The translations under genes were made by a program, and so were the position numbers. A model generated the notes under the pieces. It was not told the DNA's origin. It saw nothing but the letters and a program-made list of their open reading frames with translations, and did no database searches. Shown here one piece after another: positions 15,616-27,871 of a DNA stretch of 64,000 nt. Source of the stretch: Thermococcus barophilus MP (lineage in GTDB: Archaea; Methanobacteriota_B; Thermococci; Thermococcales; Thermococcaceae); contig NC_014804.1 in assembly GCF_000151105.2 (NCBI RefSeq), forward strand, positions 1,786,567 through 1,850,566, written 5' to 3'. Within the stretch, counting starts at the first letter, position 1. Every line of letters starts with the position of its first letter.

Positions 15616-17871
15616 ATGAAGAAACGTGCATTATCACTTATGTTGGTCATTTTCATTATAACTTCCTACGGACTTGTGGGAGCAAAGCCAATCTTAGACG
15701 GTTCTGTTGAGTTTTTAACAAAAACAAAGAATCTGGCTAATACAACACAAGAGATAAGCTTGGTGTTACTCGCACTAACATCTGCTCAGGGGAAAGTGGA
15801 TTATAATCTCATTGAAAACATAACTTACATTGCCAATATACTGGTCTCATGGCAGAATCCCGATGGTGGGTGGGGGTATTTCAAAGGTAGTGTGAGTAAT
15901 GTTGTTGATACCTCCTATGCGGTTATCGCACTGAGTAAGGTGCTCCATCTTTATGAGAAAGGTACTCCCGAATATTCAAAAATCTTCCACGCACTGGATG
16001 ATGGCATTTCATTTCTGCTGAGTTCTTATTCAGGCAGCGGTTGGGGGTATGTTCCTAAGACAGAACCAGAGTTTTATCCAACAGTCATGGCAATTTGGGC
16101 TTTGGGAGAGAATGGCTTTAGGGTGGATCATCCCTACATCAAAAGGTCTCTCAGCTACATAGCTAATGTGGAGGAATATGGTATTGATAAATATAAAGCG
16201 TTGGCTTTGGAGTTGTTGGCTTTTAAGAGTGTGGGAAAAGACATTGATACAAACCTGGTAGGGGAGATAAAGAAGGCACTCGAATCGGAGAACCTAAGTG
16301 TAAGTGACAGGGCTCTGCTTACCTATGCTCTTGTGGATTATGAAGATGTTAACTTTGATGTCGCTAAAGCGCTCTTAATTTTGGAATCTTTAAAGAAAGG
16401 ACAGTCCACATTCTACTGGAGTGATGAGCCAAAACTGTTTTCTCAGGCACATCTGTTTGAAGCTTCCTCCTATGCAGCGCTGAGTTTTGCATTAATAAGT
16501 GACAAGCTGAGCCAGGGGCTGGAAAACCCCTTTAAAACTTCCTGTGAGGCTTTGAAAAGTGCTCAAAATCCTGATGGTGGCTGGAGCTATTATTATGGTT
16601 TTCCATCTAATGAGAAGGCAACATACTATACACTAAAAGCTCTTAAATTATGCTATTTCAGAGACCCAAGCATTGAAAAAGGATTGAAGTGGGTAAGGGC
16701 AAAATACGAAGAAGACAAGTTAATTGCAAGGAAGAACAAGGAAATATATTCGCCCTATGTTTATGCTCTTCTGACACTTCTTGAATTTAACATGCTGAAT
16801 GAAACAGAAAAAGATGAAAACATTAAACTTATAGAAAGTATTCAGCTTGATACAGGAAAGTGGGGGGACTTTTTGGGTCCTCAGCCTTATGATACTGCCT
16901 TGGCAATTAAGGCACTCCTTGCCCTTGGGGTTCCATCGAATAGTACCGAAATTCAAAGAGCAAAGAACTGGCTGCTTTCTATCTCAAAGACAGGATGGGG
17001 AACTTATGTGGATACCGGATTCTATTCCTACATGCTCCCCCCTGAGGTTTCTGTTACACTTGAAGTCCTTGAAGCTTTGGCACCAATTTCAACAAAAGAC
17101 GAGCTGGAGCCTCATCTCAAATGGCTCCTTGAACAAAGAACGGAAGATGGGGGATGGGCAAATATAAGGGAACACTACTTGATTGGAGTATTCCAGTATA
17201 AAGAAAAGCCAACAATTGAGCTCACAATAAGAGCTGCAGAACTATTAGCGGAATTTGGGTATGATTACCGGGAGGATGTTCTGAATTGGCTTATGGATAA
17301 AAAGCACGGAGGTCTATGGGGAGATACAGTTGTTGATTCTGCATTAGCTACACAATTCCTCTCACAGTTTAAGTTTATACCCAAGATCAACCTCTATGAT
17401 GTGATAAGACTAATCCCAGAGCAGAAGTTTTATGTGGTTTACACTGATGATAGGAACTTAACGGCCCAACAAATAAAAGCGTCTATCGACAAACTTTTCG
17501 AAACCAATACGACTGTTGAAAAGTTCCAAGGATTTGGAGATGCAAACTACATAGTGCTATCGGACTTCGGAGAGTTTAACATCAAGGATTATAACCCCTA
17601 TGTGAAGCTTGAAGTGGACAATGAAACAATTCACATCAATGGAGAAGAATACAGCATTAAGAATACAGTTGTATTGATTCCAGGAAAGACTGAAACGGGC
17701 TACATACTCTTTGTTTTCTATGAAAAAGGTCTTGATGATGTTGTAGCCAAGATATTTGATTCCGGTTTGGTGAAGTACCTCAAAGGCGATGCATTGGTTG
17801 TGACCTATAAGGACAAGAACCATGATGGGGTTGTTGATTTAGATGAGCTGACTGTGAAGTTCTTGAGGTGA
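15616..17871 (+). CDS. Secreted alpha-toroid protein with prenyltransferase/squalene-cyclase repeats and EF-hand tail
   Basis: A 751-residue exported protein. It has a signal peptide (MKKRALSLMLVIFIITSYGLVGA), then multiple prenyltransferase/squalene-oxidase repeats with the QNPDGGWG-type turn near residues 78-86 and 316-325 and a related EDGGWA near 508, alternating with helices ending in xxYAxxAL. The C-terminus carries a canonical 12-residue EF-hand loop, DKNHDGVVDLDE (about 732-743), suggesting calcium binding. No catalytic DCTAE or DxDD motif of true squalene-hopene cyclases was found, so an enzyme role is doubtful; the fold is also used for protein binding. It precedes the CetZ-like gene by seven bases and is likely co-transcribed with it. 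Confidence 0.75.
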   Translation: MKKRALSLMLVIFIITSYGLVGAKPILDGSVEFLTKTKNLANTTQEISLVLLALTSAQGKVDYNLIENITYIANILVSWQNPDGGWGYFKGSVSNVVDTSYAVIALSKVLHLYEKGTPEYSKIFHALDDGISFLLSSYSGSGWGYVPKTEPEFYPTVMAIWALGENGFRVDHPYIKRSLSYIANVEEYGIDKYKALALELLAFKSVGKDIDTNLVGEIKKALESENLSVSDRALLTYALVDYEDVNFDVAKALLILESLKKGQSTFYWSDEPKLFSQAHLFEASSYAALSFALISDKLSQGLENPFKTSCEALKSAQNPDGGWSYYYGFPSNEKATYYTLKALKLCYFRDPSIEKGLKWVRAKYEEDKLIARKNKEIYSPYVYALLTLLEFNMLNETEKDENIKLIESIQLDTGKWGDFLGPQPYDTALAIKALLALGVPSNSTEIQRAKNWLLSISKTGWGTYVDTGFYSYMLPPEVSVTLEVLEALAPISTKDELEPHLKWLLEQRTEDGGWANIREHYLIGVFQYKEKPTIELTIRAAELLAEFGYDYREDVLNWLMDKKHGGLWGDTVVDSALATQFLSQFKFIPKINLYDVIRLIPEQKFYVVYTDDRNLTAQQIKASIDKLFETNTTVEKFQGFGDANYIVLSDFGEFNIKDYNPYVKLEVDNETIHINGEEYSIKNTVVLIPGKTETGYILFVFYEKGLDDVVAKIFDSGLVKYLKGDALVVTYKDKNHDGVVDLDELTVKFLR

Positions 17872-17878
17872 TTAAATC

Positions 17879-18973
17879 GTGAGGGCTTTAATAATAGGGA
17901 TTGGGCAGTGTGGGACTAAGATAGCAGACTTGTTTGCATTAGTTGACTTTGAGGCTATAGCGATAAACACATCGAAAAGTGATCTGGAATACCTGAAACA
18001 TATTCCCCAAGAGCGCAGGATACTCATTGGGGAAAGCCTAACTGGAGGGAAAGGTGTAAATGCGAATCCAGTATTAGGCAGGGAAGCTATGAAGCGGGAC
18101 TTATCTTTGGTCATGAGAAAGATGAATTCAGTAATCGGATATGAGGATGTTGACATATTCTTCTTAACATTTGGCTTTGGAGGAGGCACCGGGGCAGGAG
18201 GGACGCCAGTTTTAGCTGAAGCCCTCAAGGAGGAATACCCGGACTCTCTTGTTGTGGCTATAGGTGCATTGCCTCTGAAAGAAGAGGGGATAAGACCAAC
18301 TATAAATGCAGCAATAACAATTGACAAGCTCTCAAAGTTTGCCGATTCAATAATTGCAATAGATAACAACAAGCTAAAAGAAACGGGGATGGACATAAGC
18401 GGGGCATATGAAAAGATAAACTATACAATAGTTGAGCGCATCGCCTCACTTTTGGCTTTAATTGATGTTCCTGGTGAGCAGACACTGGATGCCAGTGATT
18501 TGAAATTTGTACTTAAAGCCTTTGGTAGCTTTGCTACAGTTGGCTATGCAAAAGCAGAGGCGAATAAAGTCAAAAACCTCTCCCGTTTAATCCTCAAATC
18601 TTTTGAGAATGAGGGCCTTTACCTTGATGCAAACATAGAGTCCGCTCTATATGGATTGGTAGCAATTCATGGACCACCAGAACTTTTGAAAGCAAATGAG
18701 ATATTCGAGGCATTGGATTATCTCGCCCAGAAAATTAAAGGAAAGCAGATATTCAGAGGATTTTATCCTGATCCGAGAGAAAGGGAGGTCGAGGTAGTAA
18801 CCCTTCTTAGCGGGATATATGAAAGTAAAAGCATAGAGGACATTATTTTGACAGCTAAGCGTTATGCTCAGTCTTTTATTAAGGCAAAAGAAGAAGCAGA
18901 AGTGAGAAAAAGAGAGCTCTTATCTGGTTTACCAGATTTTGATGACCTTTATCCTGGTGAGATAAATGAGTGA
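17879..18973 (+). CDS. Tubulin/FtsZ superfamily GTPase, CetZ-like
   Basis: A 364-residue tubulin-superfamily protein. It has the N-terminal GIGQCGTKIAD, the tubulin signature FGFGGGTGAGGTPV (about residues 98-111) and a T7-loop equivalent TLDASDLKFVL (about 201-211) with both acidic residues kept, so GTP hydrolysis on polymerisation is plausible. It is not the canonical division FtsZ; the sequence resembles the divergent CetZ/FtsZ3-type proteins of Thermococcales. It starts at GTG 17879, just after the alpha-toroid gene, and overlaps the next gene by eight bases (ATGAGTGA). Its place at the head of a pilin-like gene block suggests a role in organising a surface structure, which is inference. 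Confidence 0.85.
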   Translation: MRALIIGIGQCGTKIADLFALVDFEAIAINTSKSDLEYLKHIPQERRILIGESLTGGKGVNANPVLGREAMKRDLSLVMRKMNSVIGYEDVDIFFLTFGFGGGTGAGGTPVLAEALKEEYPDSLVVAIGALPLKEEGIRPTINAAITIDKLSKFADSIIAIDNNKLKETGMDISGAYEKINYTIVERIASLLALIDVPGEQTLDASDLKFVLKAFGSFATVGYAKAEANKVKNLSRLILKSFENEGLYLDANIESALYGLVAIHGPPELLKANEIFEALDYLAQKIKGKQIFRGFYPDPREREVEVVTLLSGIYESKSIEDIILTAKRYAQSFIKAKEEAEVRKRELLSGLPDFDDLYPGEINE

Positions 18974-19598
18974 TGTAGTAAAAGATTCAGTTGAGGTTGC
19001 ACTTGAACTTAATGAAAAGGAAGTTTACTCCCACATAGCCCACGAAAGTGCCGAGGATATCATCAGGATAATATCATCTCTTGATGCAGAGAGGGCAAAA
19101 AACAGAGGTGAGGTCATCTACTATCAAGATGATTGGGATGACTTAATTAGGCAGAGAATACAAAAAGGAAAGCGCCACACAGCTTTTGATTTCTACAATC
19201 CGGCTTTGTTAAATATTTGGGAAGCTAAGGTAAAATATCTGAAAAAAGTCAGAAACTATGTAAAATTAGCAATGTTGGGCATATTGGCGTTTCTGGCAGT
19301 AACAATAATTTTGTCTTTCTTTTTTGATACTCCATGGTTTTTAGTTGGAGTTAGTGCTCTTCCACTGTTGATATTCTTCCATTCATATAGGAAAGAAAAA
19401 CTTGACTTTGCATATTATCAACTTACGCAGTTCTTCATAGATGAGCTTAGGGAGCTTGTTCTTAAACATCAGTTGGATAGCACAAGGTACAAGTTTAAAA
19501 TATTCAGCTATGATTATTTTGGAATTCTGACAAGGAAAATAGGTTCAAGTATCTTTGCAATAGTCAAAACTGGGGAGAATATGACCAATACTGAATGA
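18966..19598 (+). CDS. Membrane-anchored hypothetical protein next to the CetZ-like gene
   Basis: A 210-residue protein with a charged cytosolic N-terminal region, two adjacent membrane helices (about residues 98-118 and 122-140: LAMLGILAFLAVTIILSFFF, then WFLVGVSALPLLIFFHSY) and a charged C-terminal domain. No family is recognised. Its start overlaps the end of the CetZ-like gene, so the products are probably made together; a membrane anchor for the tubulin homologue is a reasonable but untested idea. Confidence 0.75.
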   Translation: MSDVVKDSVEVALELNEKEVYSHIAHESAEDIIRIISSLDAERAKNRGEVIYYQDDWDDLIRQRIQKGKRHTAFDFYNPALLNIWEAKVKYLKKVRNYVKLAMLGILAFLAVTIILSFFFDTPWFLVGVSALPLLIFFHSYRKEKLDFAYYQLTQFFIDELRELVLKHQLDSTRYKFKIFSYDYFGILTRKIGSSIFAIVKTGENMTNTE

Positions 19599-19648
19599 AA
19601 ATTGTTAAATACTGCTTTAGAACCTAAATAATAGTAGGAGTGGGAAAT

Positions 19649-20260
19649 ATGAAGAAGGCGCAGATTTCATTGGAGTTCATGTTGATATTTGGTATACTGC
19701 TTATCCTGCTGGCGTATTCCATTAATAATATAACTTTCAGTCAGAAGTCACAGTCAAATGAATTACTTCGTGTTCAGGTCAGCTTAGAAGCCAAAAGCCT
19801 CGCAAATTCAATTTCAAACACAATTTCTCAAGTTTATGCTCAGGGGCCAGGCTCCAAGGCAACCTCTTACATCACTCTGAGATACCTCAGGGATGAAAAT
19901 TACCTGAAAAAATCATTTAATCTAAGTGGAAGTCCAGAGATATTTATAACGTATCTCAATGGAACTTATGTTGGGATAGTTGATACTGCTAATAACAGCC
20001 TTGTAACGAGCGGGGCTGGAAAAAACACTTTCTGGAGCCAGTCATTATATAGAACTGATCTTACGGGAAGTGCAGGGTTTACTCCGAGTGGAACTGCTAT
20101 CTATAATGGAAACATAGTTAATGGCATTTTAATTGCAAATCCAGCCCAGCTTCCAACGACTCTTGTAATTATTGTTGAGTGGATTCCAGGAAATGGAAAC
20201 ACTTGGGTGCTTGATATGACAGCCGGTGAGCTTAGAATAACCATAGATCCTGGTGGGTGA
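19649..20260 (+). CDS. Type IV pilin-like protein with class III signal peptide
   Basis: A 203-residue secreted protein. The N-terminus MKKAQISLEFMLIFGILLIL matches the archaeal class III signal peptide: short basic stretch, cleavage before Q, S at +3, E at +5, then a hydrophobic helix. The remainder is Ser/Thr/Asn/Gly-rich with several N-glycosylation sequons (NNIT, NLSG, NGTY, NNSL) and beta-strand character. The start is ATG 19649 after AGGAGTGG. A promoter is likely in the 40-base gap upstream (TTGTTAAATACTGC). It is the first of several exported proteins, coupled by overlapping start and stop codons. Confidence 0.82.
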   Translation: MKKAQISLEFMLIFGILLILLAYSINNITFSQKSQSNELLRVQVSLEAKSLANSISNTISQVYAQGPGSKATSYITLRYLRDENYLKKSFNLSGSPEIFITYLNGTYVGIVDTANNSLVTSGAGKNTFWSQSLYRTDLTGSAGFTPSGTAIYNGNIVNGILIANPAQLPTTLVIIVEWIPGNGNTWVLDMTAGELRITIDPGG

Positions 20261-20262
20261 AA

Positions 20263-20694
20263 ATGAAAAGAGGGCAATTAAGCCTCGACCTCCTCTTTGC
20301 GGTCTTGCTGATAATAGTAACTTTGACAAACCTTACATATTTGGCTACCAGTGAAATCAGCCATGCTGAAAGCTTTGATACCTTCACAAAGGTTAGGCTA
20401 TTCTCCTCTACGTTGGTGGATCATAGTGCTAAGGTTTATGCAATCGGAGAGGGTTATAAGGTGAGGGAAGTTGCTCCAGACTTAAATGGTGGTACAATTA
20501 GGGTTGTTTTTGATGGTGCAACAAATAAAATAATAGTAAACGCAACTGTTAATGGAAGGAGTTTCTGGATTGTTAAAAATTCTACAGTGCCGTTGTCCAC
20601 TTCCAGTGTGAACTTAACCAGCGGTGAAGAATTCTGGATTACTGCTTATTACAACACAACTGAAGGGATGCTCTATGTTAAGGTCGAAAAATAA
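20263..20694 (+). CDS. Type IV pilin-like protein with class III signal peptide
   Basis: A 144-residue protein beginning MKRGQLSLDLLFAVLLIIVT, a class III-type leader with Q at +1, S at +3 and D at +5 replacing the usual glutamate. The mature part is short, beta-rich and carries sequons (NATV, NSTV, NLTS, NTTE). The start ATG 20263 lies after GGTGGGTG, two bases past the stop of the previous gene. Part of the same operon. Confidence 0.78.
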   Translation: MKRGQLSLDLLFAVLLIIVTLTNLTYLATSEISHAESFDTFTKVRLFSSTLVDHSAKVYAIGEGYKVREVAPDLNGGTIRVVFDGATNKIIVNATVNGRSFWIVKNSTVPLSTSSVNLTSGEEFWITAYYNTTEGMLYVKVEK

Positions 20695-21145
20695 AGCCCA
20701 AACTGCCCTTGAGATGATGTTTATTGCGAGTATAATATTGATTGGAATTGCATTAGTTGTTCCATCTTATTTTGAGGAGAATAAGGATATGACAATTGTC
20801 TCTTACGTTAGAGCTTCAGCTTCTCGTGCGTGTGATTATTTAAATATGGGCGTGTTAACAGATGATCCGAGATACTCCCCTTTGAATTCTGCTCTTGAAA
20901 CATTGAATGGGCTTAATCCAAATTTAAGAGTTCTTAAAATTGAAACTTCACAAATCAATGATACTATAACGATTACCGTTGTCTTAACGACCCCCTACTC
21001 TGCTATAAATAATGAGACCTTGGCATCCGCAGTTGAGAACTTTATAGTGAGAGACTTAAATATGACAACAAACTTAATTCTCTCAAATGGGACATTGTTT
21101 TATGGGGATACTGCAGTGAATATTGCTGTGAGGGTAGAGGGATGA
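20675..21145 (+). CDS. Type IV pilin-like protein with class III signal peptide
   Basis: A 156-residue protein whose leader MLRSKNKAQTALEMMFIASI has the KAQ-T-A-L-E pattern (Q +1, E +5) before a hydrophobic helix. The mature part contains ASRACDYLNMGV and sequons (NDTI, NETL, NMTT, NGTL). Translation most likely starts at ATG 20675 inside the previous gene, after GAAGGG; a longer frame from 20624 would put 17 extra residues before the leader. The 3' end overlaps the next gene by four bases. Confidence 0.76.
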   Translation: MLRSKNKAQTALEMMFIASIILIGIALVVPSYFEENKDMTIVSYVRASASRACDYLNMGVLTDDPRYSPLNSALETLNGLNPNLRVLKIETSQINDTITITVVLTTPYSAINNETLASAVENFIVRDLNMTTNLILSNGTLFYGDTAVNIAVRVEG

Positions 21146-22539
21146 GGAGAGGTCAGCTCCTATCCATAGATGCGCTGCTTTCACTTGTAATTGTCGTTAT
21201 GGTCGTTGGGGTAGTTATAAATACAAATGATATGATAAAAGCTGAAATCACGAATTTGGTTGAATGGTACGACAGAGCAAATGTTGCCAATAACATGCTG
21301 GATATCCTAACAAAAAGTCCGGGGTATCCTAAGGATTGGGATATCACTAATGCCCCAATTAGAGTTCTTGGTTTAGTTTCTTCCAATTATCCTCCGTCTC
21401 TGGCTTATAACAAAATATTGGGGCTTAAAGAAAGAATTCAAGATGGAGACCCATCAGTTATAGATAGCTTAAGAAATCTAAGCTCTGGAAATGATTTTAT
21501 GTTTGAGATATATCTCAGAAAATATTCAATTAGCACAAGTGGATTTCCAATCACTGGGATCTATATTATTGTTGGAGCACCGAATAACAATGTTAATTTT
21601 AGGCTTTCAGACAGTGGAAATTCGCCTTTTGATGTTGTTTGTGGTTCTGTAACACTTAATGGAGAACCTCTCTCATCATCTGCTGGAAACATCCTACTCG
21701 ACCTAACCCCTGGTGACGTTGTTGAATTTATACCTCTTGAAACAGTTTATGTATACTCCAGAGGGAGTCTTTTAGGAACAATTCCTCCCAACGCCGTTGT
21801 AACTGTTGAGGTTATTGATGTGGGATCAAACTTACAGTTAAGATACAATGCAGCAACATGTCAGCTTCAGTTCACTGGAATTGGAAGGGTTTATGTTCAA
21901 GTTAAGGCTTATGCTCCTCAAGATGTCAACTTAACATATGATTTTACACCTGTTTCCAATGTAACAGAACCAGTCCTTAGAATAATTATGATAAATGGTA
22001 CAATTTATGCTCCAAACGGCACTCTGTATACATATAATGACGCCCTGAGTTCGATGAATAATTCTCAATGGATTGAAGTCGCAGAAAGATCACTATCAAT
22101 GGTGAAGAAGGTTTATAAAAGCAACCTAACATTAACTTCAGCTTTCAGTGGAGTGGAACCCATAATAATAGGAAAATTGAAGCTTGAAATACCCAACTAT
22201 GCCTATTTGAACGTGACGTTGATAGGTACTGAGGCGAATGCATCATTTTTGGCTGTAAATGGAGATTCTATTGTTGGTGTATTTGCATATAAATCTGGAA
22301 ACATAACCGAAGCTGTGATCGTCGAGAACGGCACAATAGTGAAGAAATATTCTGGCTCAAAGGGAAATGTTATGATACCATTGAAGGATATCTTTCCGGA
22401 GGTTAACATAGCGGAACTTTACATAACATCTTTTGAAGGAACTGAACTTTTTATCAATACTACTTGGAACTTGGGAGTTATACTGGAGCCAAGGGTAGAG
22501 TCGTGTAGACTAAAGCTTTGGGTGTGGGATGAGAGATGA
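21142..22539 (+). CDS. Large pilin-like secreted protein
   Basis: A 465-residue protein with a leader MRRGQLLSIDALLSLVIVV, related to class III signals but with one residue inserted between Q and the acidic position. The rest is extracellular in character: beta-rich, with many sequons (for example NLSS, NLTY, NVTE, NGTI, NNSQ, NLTL, NVTL). No enzymatic motif is seen. It starts at an ATG overlapping the previous stop (ATGA) and is followed by another gene with the same arrangement, so it belongs to one polycistronic unit. Confidence 0.75.
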   Translation: MRRGQLLSIDALLSLVIVVMVVGVVINTNDMIKAEITNLVEWYDRANVANNMLDILTKSPGYPKDWDITNAPIRVLGLVSSNYPPSLAYNKILGLKERIQDGDPSVIDSLRNLSSGNDFMFEIYLRKYSISTSGFPITGIYIIVGAPNNNVNFRLSDSGNSPFDVVCGSVTLNGEPLSSSAGNILLDLTPGDVVEFIPLETVYVYSRGSLLGTIPPNAVVTVEVIDVGSNLQLRYNAATCQLQFTGIGRVYVQVKAYAPQDVNLTYDFTPVSNVTEPVLRIIMINGTIYAPNGTLYTYNDALSSMNNSQWIEVAERSLSMVKKVYKSNLTLTSAFSGVEPIIIGKLKLEIPNYAYLNVTLIGTEANASFLAVNGDSIVGVFAYKSGNITEAVIVENGTIVKKYSGSKGNVMIPLKDIFPEVNIAELYITSFEGTELFINTTWNLGVILEPRVESCRLKLWVWDER

Positions 22540-24632
22540 GAAGGCGGGGATTTGTATTAACATTGGATGCCTTACTGTCACTGCTTTTGATAATGATATT
22601 TGTGTCCACGATAGCTGTCATAGAGAACAATGTCGGTACATACACGACGTATATGAGAGAGCAAGAAAAGTACATAGCGGAGGATACACTAACCCTTTTA
22701 AGAAGTACCAGTTTAAAAGAACTCGTACCTCCACAAAAAATCCAAGAATGGCTTGCTGACGGGACTCTAAATACCACCCTTGTTTCTCCAGATATGTCAC
22801 CGTTGGATATTGTATCGACATATTGGGCCACCGAACTTATATATCCTTCCGCAAATCTAAGACATAAAGCTGAGATAATCCTTGGATACGTCCTTAATAG
22901 GACTTTGATGGGATATAACTACGAGCTTATGATAAACAACTATACGAGCCCATATTTGAGAAAAACCGGGAGCAACTCTTCAAGAGTTCCAAACATATCA
23001 CCTGCCACACTTATTTTAAGCGGCTATGCTTACAATCAGACCCCGAGAGGGTATATGGCAAGGGCGTACCTGACAAAGGCTACATACAGAAGACAGGAAA
23101 TAATCGGCATACAGAGGGTTTTGGCATACTGTGGAGTATCTAATACGTTTAGAGTGGAGGCTCCAATTCGTTTGCCTGATGATGCTTCGATTAATAGTGC
23201 AGACATTAGACTGGTTGCAAGGACTTCTGCTCAATATTCCTACTTCGAGCTAAATAATGTGACACTCCCATTGGGAACGTCTGACATAACCAATATCTTA
23301 CACGGGGGATTAAACGTTCTGGAAGCCACCTTTACACCGGCATCTTGGTACTGTTACGAAATGGGATTTGGAAGCGGTTCAACTCTCTTTGCAGACTATA
23401 CAACAAATAGTCTAAGTGTAGAAGATCCCGCCACGAGATATGGTGAGCTATATCAGCTTGAGAGTGACAGAACGGGAATCTACTATTTAAATGCTCTTTT
23501 CGTACCAGGCAACATAACGGAGATAAATATTCACTTGGAAACTGAGGGGGTAAGAGATATAAGAATTTATTATAGCTATGGGTCATATCACTATGAGCTT
23601 GTTCACAAAACTGTTCCCACCACAGGCAGGCAGATAGTTGATATAACAAACTCTGAAATCGTATCTGCCTTAGCATCCTATGGATTTACATATGAGAATC
23701 TGAGCCGAACCTATTTCAAGCTGATAATAGCGCTTGACTCTTGGTGGGATGAATCTCAAAGAAGATTTGTGTATGACACTACTCCAAGGAGGAGAATACT
23801 TTATGGATATGGAGCTTCCAGAATAGAGATTAAGTACATTCCACGGGTTCTGGTAACTCAATATTCGATACCTCTGTCAATTTTTATTGATTATAATGAC
23901 ATTACATACAACGGGCCATGTTATGGGGTTAGATGTGCCGAGATGACATTTGATTATACTCTTCCAGAAAATGCAAAACCATGGTACGTGGATATATGGA
24001 CTGCTATTCAATTTACAACATTTACTCCAGACGCTACCATGACGCTTTCTGAAAATGGTTATACGTTCTACGACTATTACCCAGACATATATTTGATAAG
24101 GGTAGCATACACCCGACTAACTGACACCATGATGGTTCCTGGGCGTACAAATACATTCAGGGCATACAGTACCGATGCTTATCAGTTTGGATTCAGAGAG
24201 GGAGAAAGTAGGGGGGTTGTTAACTATTTCATAGAAGGATATGCTGGTTATGGGGATGTATTTCCCCAGCTTCTCCAAGGATACCCCCGATATAAAGGAT
24301 ATAACCTCACGTATTGGTATTATGATGGTTCAAGTACTTATCAGCGACAAATATTGATCGGAGACCCTCCTTATAAGCTGATTACAGTTGATGATCTGGA
24401 TCCTCAAAGGTATGCTGTTGACGATGCGATACTAAGGCTTTTCAATAATCTCAACTATATCAACGATGTAAATCCAGATGACTGGAAAACATCTCCATAC
24501 GATGGATCTCAAAATAATCCGATAGATGTGGACTTACCTGAGGGTGTTAAGATAGCATTTGCCTCGATGGGAGAGATACCCGGGTTATTCAAACCTATCA
24601 CAATAACCTTAAGAGTATGGAGGGAGCAATAA
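22536..24632 (+). CDS. Large secreted protein with pilin-like N-terminus
   Basis: A 698-residue protein starting MRRRGFVLTLDALLSLLLIM, closely similar to the preceding gene's leader (xxxLDALLSL) but with Gln replaced by Phe, so class III peptidase processing is uncertain and the helix may stay as an anchor. The body is Tyr-, Thr- and Asn-rich, consistent with an extracellular beta-structured protein. No known catalytic domain was recognised. Start and stop overlap its neighbours (ATGA and TAATG). Confidence 0.74.
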   Translation: MRRRGFVLTLDALLSLLLIMIFVSTIAVIENNVGTYTTYMREQEKYIAEDTLTLLRSTSLKELVPPQKIQEWLADGTLNTTLVSPDMSPLDIVSTYWATELIYPSANLRHKAEIILGYVLNRTLMGYNYELMINNYTSPYLRKTGSNSSRVPNISPATLILSGYAYNQTPRGYMARAYLTKATYRRQEIIGIQRVLAYCGVSNTFRVEAPIRLPDDASINSADIRLVARTSAQYSYFELNNVTLPLGTSDITNILHGGLNVLEATFTPASWYCYEMGFGSGSTLFADYTTNSLSVEDPATRYGELYQLESDRTGIYYLNALFVPGNITEINIHLETEGVRDIRIYYSYGSYHYELVHKTVPTTGRQIVDITNSEIVSALASYGFTYENLSRTYFKLIIALDSWWDESQRRFVYDTTPRRRILYGYGASRIEIKYIPRVLVTQYSIPLSIFIDYNDITYNGPCYGVRCAEMTFDYTLPENAKPWYVDIWTAIQFTTFTPDATMTLSENGYTFYDYYPDIYLIRVAYTRLTDTMMVPGRTNTFRAYSTDAYQFGFREGESRGVVNYFIEGYAGYGDVFPQLLQGYPRYKGYNLTYWYYDGSSTYQRQILIGDPPYKLITVDDLDPQRYAVDDAILRLFNNLNYINDVNPDDWKTSPYDGSQNNPIDVDLPEGVKIAFASMGEIPGLFKPITITLRVWREQ

Positions 24633-27097
24633 TGAAGAGGAGGGGCTTTTTCTTAAATTCTGTAGTTCTCTTGCTCCTGATTCCTCTGCTTTTGCTTTTG
24701 GCTACTTATGAGGATGTTTCCTCTCAAGTTATTCAAGCTCAGAGTGTAAGAACCCAAGCCGAAAGAACGTATAGAGTTGCCTCTTTTTTGGAGTTGGATT
24801 TTCAAAAAGCTCTGGAAATTTCTGGAAAAAGGGCGATTATCACGATCATTGATTATGTATCTGTGACAGGAGACTTTATCTCTCCCACTTACATGGTAAA
24901 CAATACGATAAGGGATTTAATTCTTGAGGGCACATCTCCAAGTTTAATTGGCTATGATCCAAATAGAGTTATGAGGGGACAGAGTCTTAGAAGATGGCTC
25001 CTCAACATCAGTGCTGATTTAAGGGATCAGGGATTTAACATCAGCCCCTCCATTGATGAAATACTGAACTCTATGGAGATTACAGTTGCTCCTTTGGACT
25101 CCTTCAGGGTAGTTATAAAAGCCAGGATACCCAACATAACAATACGGGATGTCTCAGGCAGGATAGTTTATACCGGAGCGATCCCAAGTAATGGGGGTTA
25201 TATTTACTCAATAGTTGATGTTCAGAATCTTGAAGATCCTATATTTTCTGCAATGACTGGTGGTAGATATTACAGATCAATTAGGGCATGTCCATATTCT
25301 TTCCCAGAGCTTTTAGATAAGCCAATTAAAGTTTTAGAGGGGAATGGGAGTAGCACCGTTGATCATTTTGTGGAAGAGTTTTCAAGAACGGTTGATCCAG
25401 ATAGAATATACTTTGGAGATTATTATCCTGGAACGGGAGCAGCGGCGTATGTTTTGTTAAATAATCCAGAACAGAATGTCACCGAACCTATTGTTTTTAA
25501 CACAACATTAAATGGAAGAAGAACTTCTCCCTTAGAGGTTTTCAATGAAGGAGATATGGGCGTGTTGGTCTTTGGAAACGTAAGCGGAGCGGGTGGAACA
25601 GGAACAGCGACAAGTTGGTGTTCACTTTTGGAATACAGATTAAATGTGACAATACAAAACAGAATTAATCAAGAGTTAAAAAACTTTCAAGTTCCAATTA
25701 CTATTGACAGCACAACTCTCCCCGACCCTGCTTTGACAACGTTCTTCAGAACTGCAGACAGCGATGGAGACAACATTCCAATTATTGAGTTCTATGATGA
25801 AAACTGCAATCCGATGAACTTCTGGGTGGAGAAATGGGATACCAATACCAAACAAGCTGTGATCTGGGTCAATGTTACTATTCCTGCGAACTCTCAGATA
25901 ACTATTGCAATATACTTTGATTCAAATGGAGTAGAGACACTTGGAGATCCAGATAAAGTGTTTGATTTCTATGATGATTTTGAGGGAAGCTCTTTGGATA
26001 CAACAAAATGGACAACAAATACAAATCAATATTCACTTGAAAATGGGCTCATTAAGATGTGGGGAAACTGGAACAACCAGTACTACATAAATACTCTCAA
26101 GAGTTTTGCTCCAAATGTGATTATTGAAGGCGTTTGGAGGCTTGGAGGGTATACATATTGGAGAGGTCGAAGAATATTTAGTTATGATACTGACTTAACA
26201 ATAGGTCTTGTTCCTTCAGAAACCTCTACTTGGTTAGATGATTCTGCCATTTATGCATGGTATGATGGGTATGACTATAACTTGAATCCTTGGAACTACA
26301 AAACATTAAGAATATATGGGAGTTACATCCCCAATCTACAACAAATACAATCTACAGATTGGCAGAATTTTGAAATTATCTACACTAACACTCAAATACA
26401 ATTTTGGGATTCTTATACAAACACTTGGCTAATTGGAAGTGTATATCCCCCTCTATCAAGCTTCCATTTGCAGATTGCGGCAGATACTGACTCAGATACA
26501 AGATATGGATATATCGACTGGATACGTGTTCGCAAATATGCACCAACTCCTCCTACTGTCATGATATCCCAAAATATAGAAACAAAACCCTCATCCACAA
26601 CAACGGCTACAACAACATCAAGTGCAAGAGCCTATGATATCCAACCTTTTATAGACTGTATTATGGATCAGCGATATTTTGGCATTTACAATGCCCCATC
26701 TTTCTTTGAAAGACTCGAGGGAAGCACAATTAATCATGCTGCATATGAAGCCTTAGCTCACCAGTTACAGGATGAGCTCGGGGTTAAGTATGGAAGTCAG
26801 TATTACCCAATTGGACTGGTCAGTTTCATGATACCAGATCCCACATATGATCAGAAACTCTTTGATCTCTTCAATACCCTGGGACTCTCTATAGAGGAAG
26901 GACAAACGAGCTTTGACTATTATTTCCTCCAATATTACTTCAAAGGAGGAGCAAAAGTAACTGGTTATAGAATGTGGGGAGTTTCCCAAGGAGTTACTTC
27001 TCAGGGAGATTTGAGCAGTGTGCCATTTTTCATAGATAATCAAACAGCTGTAGCCATATTTGGAGTCCAGGGGGCTCAGGATTTACTTCAGAGGTGA
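24632..27097 (+). CDS. Large secreted protein with inserted DUF2341 and jelly-roll-like module
   Basis: An 821-residue protein with an N-terminal membrane helix (MKRRGFFLNSVVLLLLIPLL) like its neighbours. Residues about 330-430 match a DUF2341-type domain (LEYRLNVTIQNRINQELKNF, IYFDSNG), followed by a concanavalin-like module (about 440-645: FYDDFEGSSLDTTKW, GYIDWIRVRKYAPTPP). These are flanked by low-complexity linkers, SGAGGTGTATS before and a Ser/Thr tract (SSTTTATTTSSA) after, so the pair looks like an insertion into an older protein whose C-terminal part resumes at YDIQPFIDCIMDQRYFG. The start ATG 24632 overlaps the previous stop and follows GGAGGG. Confidence 0.75.
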   Translation: MKRRGFFLNSVVLLLLIPLLLLLATYEDVSSQVIQAQSVRTQAERTYRVASFLELDFQKALEISGKRAIITIIDYVSVTGDFISPTYMVNNTIRDLILEGTSPSLIGYDPNRVMRGQSLRRWLLNISADLRDQGFNISPSIDEILNSMEITVAPLDSFRVVIKARIPNITIRDVSGRIVYTGAIPSNGGYIYSIVDVQNLEDPIFSAMTGGRYYRSIRACPYSFPELLDKPIKVLEGNGSSTVDHFVEEFSRTVDPDRIYFGDYYPGTGAAAYVLLNNPEQNVTEPIVFNTTLNGRRTSPLEVFNEGDMGVLVFGNVSGAGGTGTATSWCSLLEYRLNVTIQNRINQELKNFQVPITIDSTTLPDPALTTFFRTADSDGDNIPIIEFYDENCNPMNFWVEKWDTNTKQAVIWVNVTIPANSQITIAIYFDSNGVETLGDPDKVFDFYDDFEGSSLDTTKWTTNTNQYSLENGLIKMWGNWNNQYYINTLKSFAPNVIIEGVWRLGGYTYWRGRRIFSYDTDLTIGLVPSETSTWLDDSAIYAWYDGYDYNLNPWNYKTLRIYGSYIPNLQQIQSTDWQNFEIIYTNTQIQFWDSYTNTWLIGSVYPPLSSFHLQIAADTDSDTRYGYIDWIRVRKYAPTPPTVMISQNIETKPSSTTTATTTSSARAYDIQPFIDCIMDQRYFGIYNAPSFFERLEGSTINHAAYEALAHQLQDELGVKYGSQYYPIGLVSFMIPDPTYDQKLFDLFNTLGLSIEEGQTSFDYYFLQYYFKGGAKVTGYRMWGVSQGVTSQGDLSSVPFFIDNQTAVAIFGVQGAQDLLQR

Positions 27098-27103
27098 AAT
27101 CAA

Positions 27104-27871
27104 ATGAATCCTGAGGAACTGTTCTACAAAGTAGGTGAGTTCGTGGAGGCAACATGGGAAAGGGTAAAAGATTTCACAAACCCAAAACCTCAGGAAAAGC
27201 CACCATCCTTTAAGCTTCTGAGAAAGCTCGTAAAAAAGAAGGTTACAGTTCACGAATTATTAGTTCTAAAACTTCAGTTAACTTTTCTTTTCTATATGTT
27301 CTTAGCTCTGCTACTTGTGGTTTTCCTGCCAAATGAGTTATATTTAGTTATTTTGACGGCGGTATATTTTATATATCTGAGAGTGATATTCCGCAAATAT
27401 AGAGAGTTTTTTATTGAACATGAGCCGTATCAGGTATTTTATTATTCCATTAGCATCATAGGATTCCTTGCATTTTTTGGATATGTGCTTTTGAAAAGAT
27501 TTTCTTTAGACATTCGTTATTCGTTAGGCTATCTTGTCTTTGTTTTTGTTGCCGTTCTAATGTTTAGATTTTATTTTAAATCAAAATACGGCAGAGATTG
27601 GACTTATGGTGTTATAGAGGATATTAAAGAAAATGTTGTGAAAATTAGTGTGCATGATGACATCAGAGCAAACGTTAAGCCCGGAGAATACTGGGTTGAT
27701 AAAGTGCCTGATGTTGAAATCGGAAGAATCGTGAAAGTTTTAGTTGAGGAAAGGGCATTTAGGGGAGCAGTGCCAACAAAGATAATTGAAGTTTATTTAA
27801 GCGACCAACCTTCATCGTCAAAAGCCTCAACAGAAGCAAAAGAGGACAAGGAAAGCAACAAAAGCTTGTAA
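27104..27871 (+). CDS. DUF2101-like membrane protein
   Basis: A 255-residue integral membrane protein with about four hydrophobic segments between residues 60 and 160 (LTFLFYMFLALLLVVFLP, YLVILTAVYFIYLRV, FYYSISIIGFLAFFGYVLL, LGYLVFVFVAVLMFRFY), followed by a soluble beta-rich C-terminal domain (YGVIEDIKENVVKISVHDDI ... VGRIVKVLVEE) and a Ser/Lys/Glu tail. It resembles the DUF2101 family of archaeal membrane proteins. It follows the secreted proteins by six bases after GGTGAAATC and may be an accessory component. Its 3' end overlaps the next minus-strand gene by 79 bases. Confidence 0.7.
   Translation: MNPEELFYKVGEFVEATWERVKDFTNPKPQEKPPSFKLLRKLVKKKVTVHELLVLKLQLTFLFYMFLALLLVVFLPNELYLVILTAVYFIYLRVIFRKYREFFIEHEPYQVFYYSISIIGFLAFFGYVLLKRFSLDIRYSLGYLVFVFVAVLMFRFYFKSKYGRDWTYGVIEDIKENVVKISVHDDIRANVKPGEYWVDKVPDVEIGRIVKVLVEERAFRGAVPTKIIEVYLSDQPSSSKASTEAKEDKESNKSL

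Follow-up and report, generated by a model that had tools for sequence, protein, structure and literature searches.

A cetZ gene within a conserved pilin operon of Thermococcus barophilus MP, with signs of a swappable pilus tip

The locus and its conservation

The window, i.e., the whole stretch of 64,000 nucleotides that was analysed, corresponds to positions 1786567–1850566 of NC_014804.1, in a genome of 2.06 Mb distributed in two contigs. Between positions 15616 and 27871 of the window there are ten open reading frames on the + strand, encoding an alpha-toroid (TOR), the tubulin homologue CetZ, a protein with two membrane helices (TM2), six pilin-like proteins (P1 to P6) and a DUF2101 protein. 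A previous reading of this DNA from its letters alone (the sequence-only reading) had located the open frames correctly on this strand, and its description of tightly packed genes with overlaps also holds, as neighbouring genes either overlap or are at most 41 bp apart; on the basis of this spacing a single transcription unit is plausible. That reading counted nine genes, but the number is ten, because the DUF2101 gene, which it left unnamed, lies within the same coordinates and is conserved with the block. The features of the locus are as follows.

15616..17871, + strand: TOR, exported alpha-toroid of 751 residues; Pfam SQHop_cyclase_N/C, Sec-type signal peptide read from the sequence
17879..18973, + strand: CetZ, 364 residues, GTG start; Pfam Tubulin and CetZ_C
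18926..18952, + strand: C-terminal motif of CetZ, GLPDFDDLY, candidate docking peptide; conserved in 41/41 orthologues
18966..19598, + strand: TM2, 210 residues, with a cytoplasmic N-domain, two membrane helices and a C-domain
19164..19202, + strand: invariant motif of the TM2 N-domain, KGKRHTAFDFYNP; KGKRHT[AV]FDFYNP in 41/41
19640..20260, + strand: P1, class III leader A|QISLEF with Glu at +5; PF04021 above cut-off, motif in 41/41, probable start at the ATG at 19649
20257..20694, + strand: P2, leader G|QLSLD with Asp at +5; motif in 40/40
20624..21145, + strand: P3, leader A|QTALE with Glu at +5; motif in 41/41, probable start at the ATG at 20675
21142..22539, + strand: P4, leader G|QLLSIDA with Asp at +6, mosaic middle; motif in 41/41
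22536..24632, + strand: P5, leader G|FVLTLDA with Asp at +6, mosaic middle; leader in 40/40 of the loci listed
24617..27097, + strand: P6, leader G|FFLNS lacking an acidic residue, carries DUF2341; motif in 41/41, probable start at the ATG at 24632
25500..26700, + strand: replaced cassette of P6 (approximate limits), with DUF2341 at 25784-26017; drop in DNA identity against locus L045
27104..27871, + strand: DUF2101 multi-helix membrane protein of 255 residues, last gene; PF09874, 242 bits, kept in 40/40 loci

The Pfam search gave no accepted family for TM2 and P2–P5, with no relatives for P4 and P5, and a profile search of the PDB returned no relative of P5.

A close cetZ orthologue (81–100% identity) is present in 89 of the 94 Thermococcales genomes searched; the remaining five (G053, G057, G062, G064 and G088), all drafts with at least 210 contigs, gave only FtsZ-level matches. 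The gene-neighbourhood comparison that had been proposed was carried out on 40 loci from six genera, and the order TOR-CetZ-TM2-P1-P2-P3-P4-P5-P6-DUF2101 is kept in all 40, except that the toroid is absent from two (in seven loci, TM2 or P2 was identified by tblastn). The scattering of these genes in other genomes, which would have spoken against a common system, was thus looked for and not found among the 40, and a ten-gene order maintained to this extent is far beyond chance. The two loci in which the toroid is missing, L062 and L077 (genomes G020 and G073), keep the other nine genes; in one of these genomes only a weak partial toroid match was found elsewhere. In the loci with an exchanged upstream flank, which we take to be those of Pyrococcus, the upstream neighbour differs, yet the block is still whole and starts at the toroid. 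In 21 genomes that belong to the same class but not to Thermococcales, only FtsZ-level matches to CetZ and no full TM2 were found.

CetZ and its membrane neighbour TM2

The CetZ protein scores above the Pfam cut-offs for both PF00091 (109.7 bits) and PF21011 (58.2 bits), and its closest solved structures are 4b46 (E 4.9e-42), 4b45 (2.5e-34) and 3zid (4.6e-30), ahead of all other FtsZ entries. These best matches are two Haloferax CetZ entries and a Methanosaeta CetZ entry, and PMC9856176 gives all three as CetZ structures. With the NCBIfam model of the division protein FtsZ, TIGR00065, the score was 130 bits, far below the cut-off of 295.2. The sequences GGGTGAG and TLDASD, present in 40 and 37 of the 41 orthologues, respectively, are both intact in this protein; together with the Tubulin and CetZ_C domains, they agree with the initial suggestion of a cytoskeletal GTPase with an intact catalytic loop. 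Two other proteins of the tubulin family are encoded elsewhere in the genome. The mean pairwise identity of CetZ among 41 Thermococcales is 86%, versus 34–49% for the pilins; being far more conserved than its neighbours, CetZ may have duties beyond pili.

In TM2 the conservation is unevenly distributed, with mean pairwise identities of 80% in residues 1–90, only 31% across the membrane part and 53% in the C-domain. The AlphaFold2 model of this protein is of moderate confidence (mean pLDDT 78.8) and has no Foldseek match in the PDB at E < 0.2; a profile of TM2 likewise found nothing in the PDB. Outside Thermococcales three weak matches were obtained, limited to the second half of the protein and adjoining an amino-acid permease gene, not pilins. 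In class relatives that lack CetZ, a family of two-helix proteins with a TM2-like C-terminal stretch (L103:6135-6836, L104:9139-9879 and L105:9178-10080) is encoded next to an amino-acid permease.

It is well known that the tails of FtsZ proteins dock on membrane adaptors. Near the C-terminus of CetZ, the motif [GN]LPDF[DE]D[ILVF]Y is found in all 41 orthologues, within a tail that is otherwise variable. The acidic character of this motif, the basic conserved patch of TM2 and the overlap of the two genes suggest that the LPDF[DE]DxY tail and the TM2 N-domain form a candidate docking pair.

Leader classes and mosaic proteins

The leaders of the six pilin-like proteins, compared in 40–41 genomes and numbered from the G/A expected before the cleavage site, show an acidic residue at +5 in P1 (Q[IVM]SLE), P2 (Q..[LIF]D) and P3 (Q..[IVL]E), and at +6 in P4 (QLLSLDA) and P5 (F.FTLDA), while that of P6 (F..N) has no acidic residue. 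The claim of six pilin-like proteins is sustained by leader motifs that are conserved in every genome examined, but the Pfam class III model is passed by P1 alone, so that P2–P6 rest on these motifs. The leaders had also been described as a graded series from true to divergent signals; they are better read as six fixed, position-specific classes, and the idea of decaying pilin signals was discarded, given that each class is kept in all genomes. In type II secretion systems, GspK lacks Glu5 and caps the pseudopilus. By analogy, the lack of an acidic residue would make P6 the best candidate for the pilus tip.

P4, P5 and P6 were compared in 16 genome pairs, not all of them independent, in which CetZ is at least 95% identical. 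The median identities of the N-terminal, middle and C-terminal parts are 77, 39 and 59% for P4, 82, 33 and 87% for P5, and 88, 43 and 61% for P6; for reference, in the same pairs CetZ reaches 96%, TM2 91% and the gene flanking the operon upstream 95%. Hence, in the three proteins the first ~100 residues are kept, the ends are mostly kept, and the middle is replaced. The DNA comparison between the window and its closest relative, L045, illustrates this replacement: the operons are 94–99% identical up to ~25.5 kb, identity falls to 47–64% over ~1 kb inside P6 (500-base blocks ending at 26000 and 26500), and past the cassette it returns to about 90% or more. Certain pairs show an exchange that covers the entire 3' half of the operon, from P2 on in L069/L071 and from P4 on in L063/L083. 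Judging from the sequences, recombination would be the natural reading of the exchange in P4–P6. The swapped middles of these candidate tip proteins point to adhesion, partner recognition or escape from viruses.

The DUF2341 domain of P6 (86.4 bits in the Pfam search of this protein) occupies one fixed site; 34 of 41 genomes have it there, usually as one or two copies, and none is found in the other seven. The two loci without toroid, L062 and L077, also lack DUF2341 in P6 (468–485 residues), possibly reflecting one linked loss in one lineage. Four loci (L057, L071, L072 and L083) have a short P6 of 359–377 residues without DUF2341 and a long P5 of 850–866 residues, which looks like a shift of the tip load from P6 to P5. 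Among close relatives, the switch points of the 3' exchanges lie near P1/P2 or P3/P4. In L083, a locus otherwise distant from that of the window, the DUF2101 protein is 84% identical to the one described here.

The pilus machinery and the possible role of CetZ

The sequence-only reading remarked that no pilus ATPase or prepilin peptidase is present, and this is true for both the locus and the 64-kb window. These components are encoded elsewhere in the genome: approximately 110 kb upstream (L043) there is a PilB protein (T2SSE ATPase) together with two T2SSF (PilC) proteins and a DUF515 protein, and an EppA-type peptidase (L094:13793-14920; Arc_PepC 106.6 bits, and Peptidase_A24), the sole A24 peptidase found, is encoded immediately downstream of a pair of small class III pilins and near the archaellum genes. 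An incomplete or non-pilus machine for want of an ATPase was therefore ruled out. All 74 near-complete Thermococcales genomes encode PilB, and in the 36 genomes in which the distance could be measured it lies 31 to 971 kb away from cetZ in every case, from which it follows that the separation of the motor from the minor pilins is normal for Thermococcales. Since practically every genome of the order has both cetZ and pilB, their co-occurrence says nothing about a functional tie.

Around half of the PilB frames of Thermococcales are 800–1230 residues long, and their match breaks at query residue 468, which looks like the insertion of an intein; we take it to be the KlbA intein. The copy in this genome (L043:8388-10283) is uninterrupted. 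On contig C29 of genome G093, two more PilB-like ATPase matches occur in tandem, 60% identical to PilB.

Taking the assignment of the PilB ATPase to Clade 1 from PMC4858521, the following marks of a Clade 1 pilus were found in this genome: a single locus encoding multiple proteins with class III-type leaders, an ATPase with two TadC/PilC proteins, an EppA-type peptidase and a DUF2341 protein. Makarova et al. 2016 assigned this locus to the Clade 1 type IV pilus of Thermococci and class I methanogens, noted that in most Thermococci it includes an FtsZ-family GTPase and a squalene cyclase, and proposed by analogy with PilY that DUF2341 proteins are tip adhesins (PMC4858521); an earlier description by Szabo et al. 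2007 is cited there. The gene order, the minor pilins, the DUF2341 adhesin, the GTPase (arCOG02202) and the squalene-cyclase homologue (arCOG03396) are the same as in the Clade 1 pili of PMC4858521, as is the presence in the genome of the ATPase, two TadC and EppA; the difference is that the motor is here encoded away from the minor pilins. PMC4858521 mentions the GTPase and the cyclase for Thermococci, and not for methanogens. According to Brown and Duggin 2023, where the protein is named CetZ, pilins adjoin cetZ in all the Thermococcales examined and CetZ may scaffold pilus assembly (PMC9856176); protein group, pilin linkage and scaffold proposal coincide with those considered here. The sequence-only reading was borne out in part: a surface filament operon that contains a tubulin homologue is correct, and the further step, a surface or secretion machine placed by this homologue, may be considered plausible. 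The locus and the scaffold idea were already in print (PMC4858521, PMC9856176).

Other systems resemble this locus in part. The corresponding pilus locus of Methanococcus maripaludis (epd/DUF2341), with minor pilins, a DUF2341 protein and EppA, is required for natural transformation, i.e., for DNA uptake, but no CetZ or toroid is reported there (PMC10133366). VARTIG, another surface module of Thermococcales described by Makarova et al., shares the recombination-driven variability of exported proteins, whereas it consists of immunoglobulin-domain proteins with variable gene content and has no pilin operon (PMC8416519). No mention of the LPDF[DE]DxY tail, the TM2 N-domain or the mosaic tip proteins was found in the passages of PMC9856176 that were consulted, and in the main text of the open-access papers we did not find the fixed leader classes, the mosaic P4–P6, the fixed-site DUF2341 cassette, the TM2 N-domain or the CetZ tail. 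What is added here, from sequence comparison, are indications that the pilus tip may be swappable and that CetZ may have a conserved partner in the membrane, encoded next to it.

The block very probably belongs to a type IV pilus. The account that we favour, as a reasonably probable one, is that this operon supplies the Clade 1 type IV pilus of Thermococcales with its minor pilins, tip adhesins and accessory proteins, and that CetZ would place the PilB/PilC platform via TM2. The leaders of P1–P6 would be processed by EppA; P1–P3 would form the body of an initiating complex, and P4–P6 would cap it, with P6, devoid of the acidic residue, at the very tip as GspK is, and carrying a putative swappable DUF2341 adhesin domain. 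The exported toroid could be a non-enzymatic surface accessory. In the cytoplasm, CetZ would polymerise, its LPDFDDxY tail may dock at the membrane by binding the TM2 N-domain, and the docked protein would then gather or place the PilB/PilC platform at the site of pilus assembly. That CetZ physically takes part in the placement of the pilus is, taken separately, given slightly less than an even chance, and the related methanogen pilus, with no CetZ reported at its locus (PMC4858521), counts against it. An extended version, in which TM2 is a dedicated tubulin receptor that binds the CetZ tail through the KGKRHT-FDFYNP domain and ties the filament to the pilus base, with P4–P6 as a constant chassis bearing interchangeable recognition cassettes, seems rather doubtful.

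A different explanation is that CetZ and the pilus are merely co-regulated: CetZ would set the cell shape or surface-associated biosynthesis and be expressed with the pilins at the switch between free and attached cells, making no contact with the pilus machinery. The disparity in conservation between CetZ and the pilins and the distance between cetZ and pilB agree with this possibility, as does the fact that Haloferax CetZ proteins are tied to cell shape and motility (PMC9856176). Against it, TM2, whose gene overlaps cetZ, has a cytoplasmic domain conserved nearly to the level of CetZ, as a partner-binding surface would be. In addition, Halobacteria also have a CetZ gene in type IV pilus loci, cetZ2 with pilB2/C2 (PMC9856176), although in the Haloferax regulon the ATPase is of another clade and within the locus, and the CetZ is of another subfamily. 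With these arguments on both sides, mere co-regulation appears unlikely, if well worth considering. No test of pilus placement by CetZ was found in the open-access literature. To our knowledge, no clearer case exists of a tubulin homologue that could organise type IV pili. The question is now testable, with a named membrane partner, TM2, and a short invariant CetZ tail to mutate, in an order that includes the genetically tractable Thermococcus kodakarensis and Pyrococcus furiosus.

It could also be considered that the operon encodes a secretion system, i.e., a short pseudopilus through which the toroid and the large P4–P6 proteins would be exported. The toroid has a Sec-type signal and, as read from its sequence, no C-terminal membrane anchor, and the large minor pilins, with a P6 leader that lacks the acidic residue, recall GspK; nevertheless, as far as we know these archaea have no outer membrane to cross, two genomes keep everything else without the toroid, and the genome encodes separate small class III pilins of a kind fit for long filaments, which makes a pseudopilus very improbable. 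Even less credit can be given to the toroid being an enzyme, such as a terpene cyclase or a prenyltransferase-like protein modifying surface lipids or pilins: although profile searches relate it to squalene-hopene and similar cyclases of known structure, the site aligned with the DxDD motif of class II cyclases reads S-N-V-V-D-T, DxDD is found nowhere in 37 of 39 orthologues, including the toroid of the window, and its export takes it away from isoprenoid substrates.

Returning to the toroid as a surface accessory of the pilus, the sequence-only reading had proposed a calcium-binding exported protein; the Pfam toroid repeats and the Sec-type signal uphold an exported toroid, but the C-terminal EF-hand-like loop (at about 17812–17847) occurs in only 22 of 39 orthologues, and a conserved calcium binder was discarded for this reason. 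The two genomes that retain the other nine genes also rule out the toroid as an obligatory partner. Between close relatives the toroid may also be replaced, as seen for L048 versus L049/L050 and for L070 versus L073, where the toroids are 46% and 35% identical, respectively, and CetZ is 96–99% identical.
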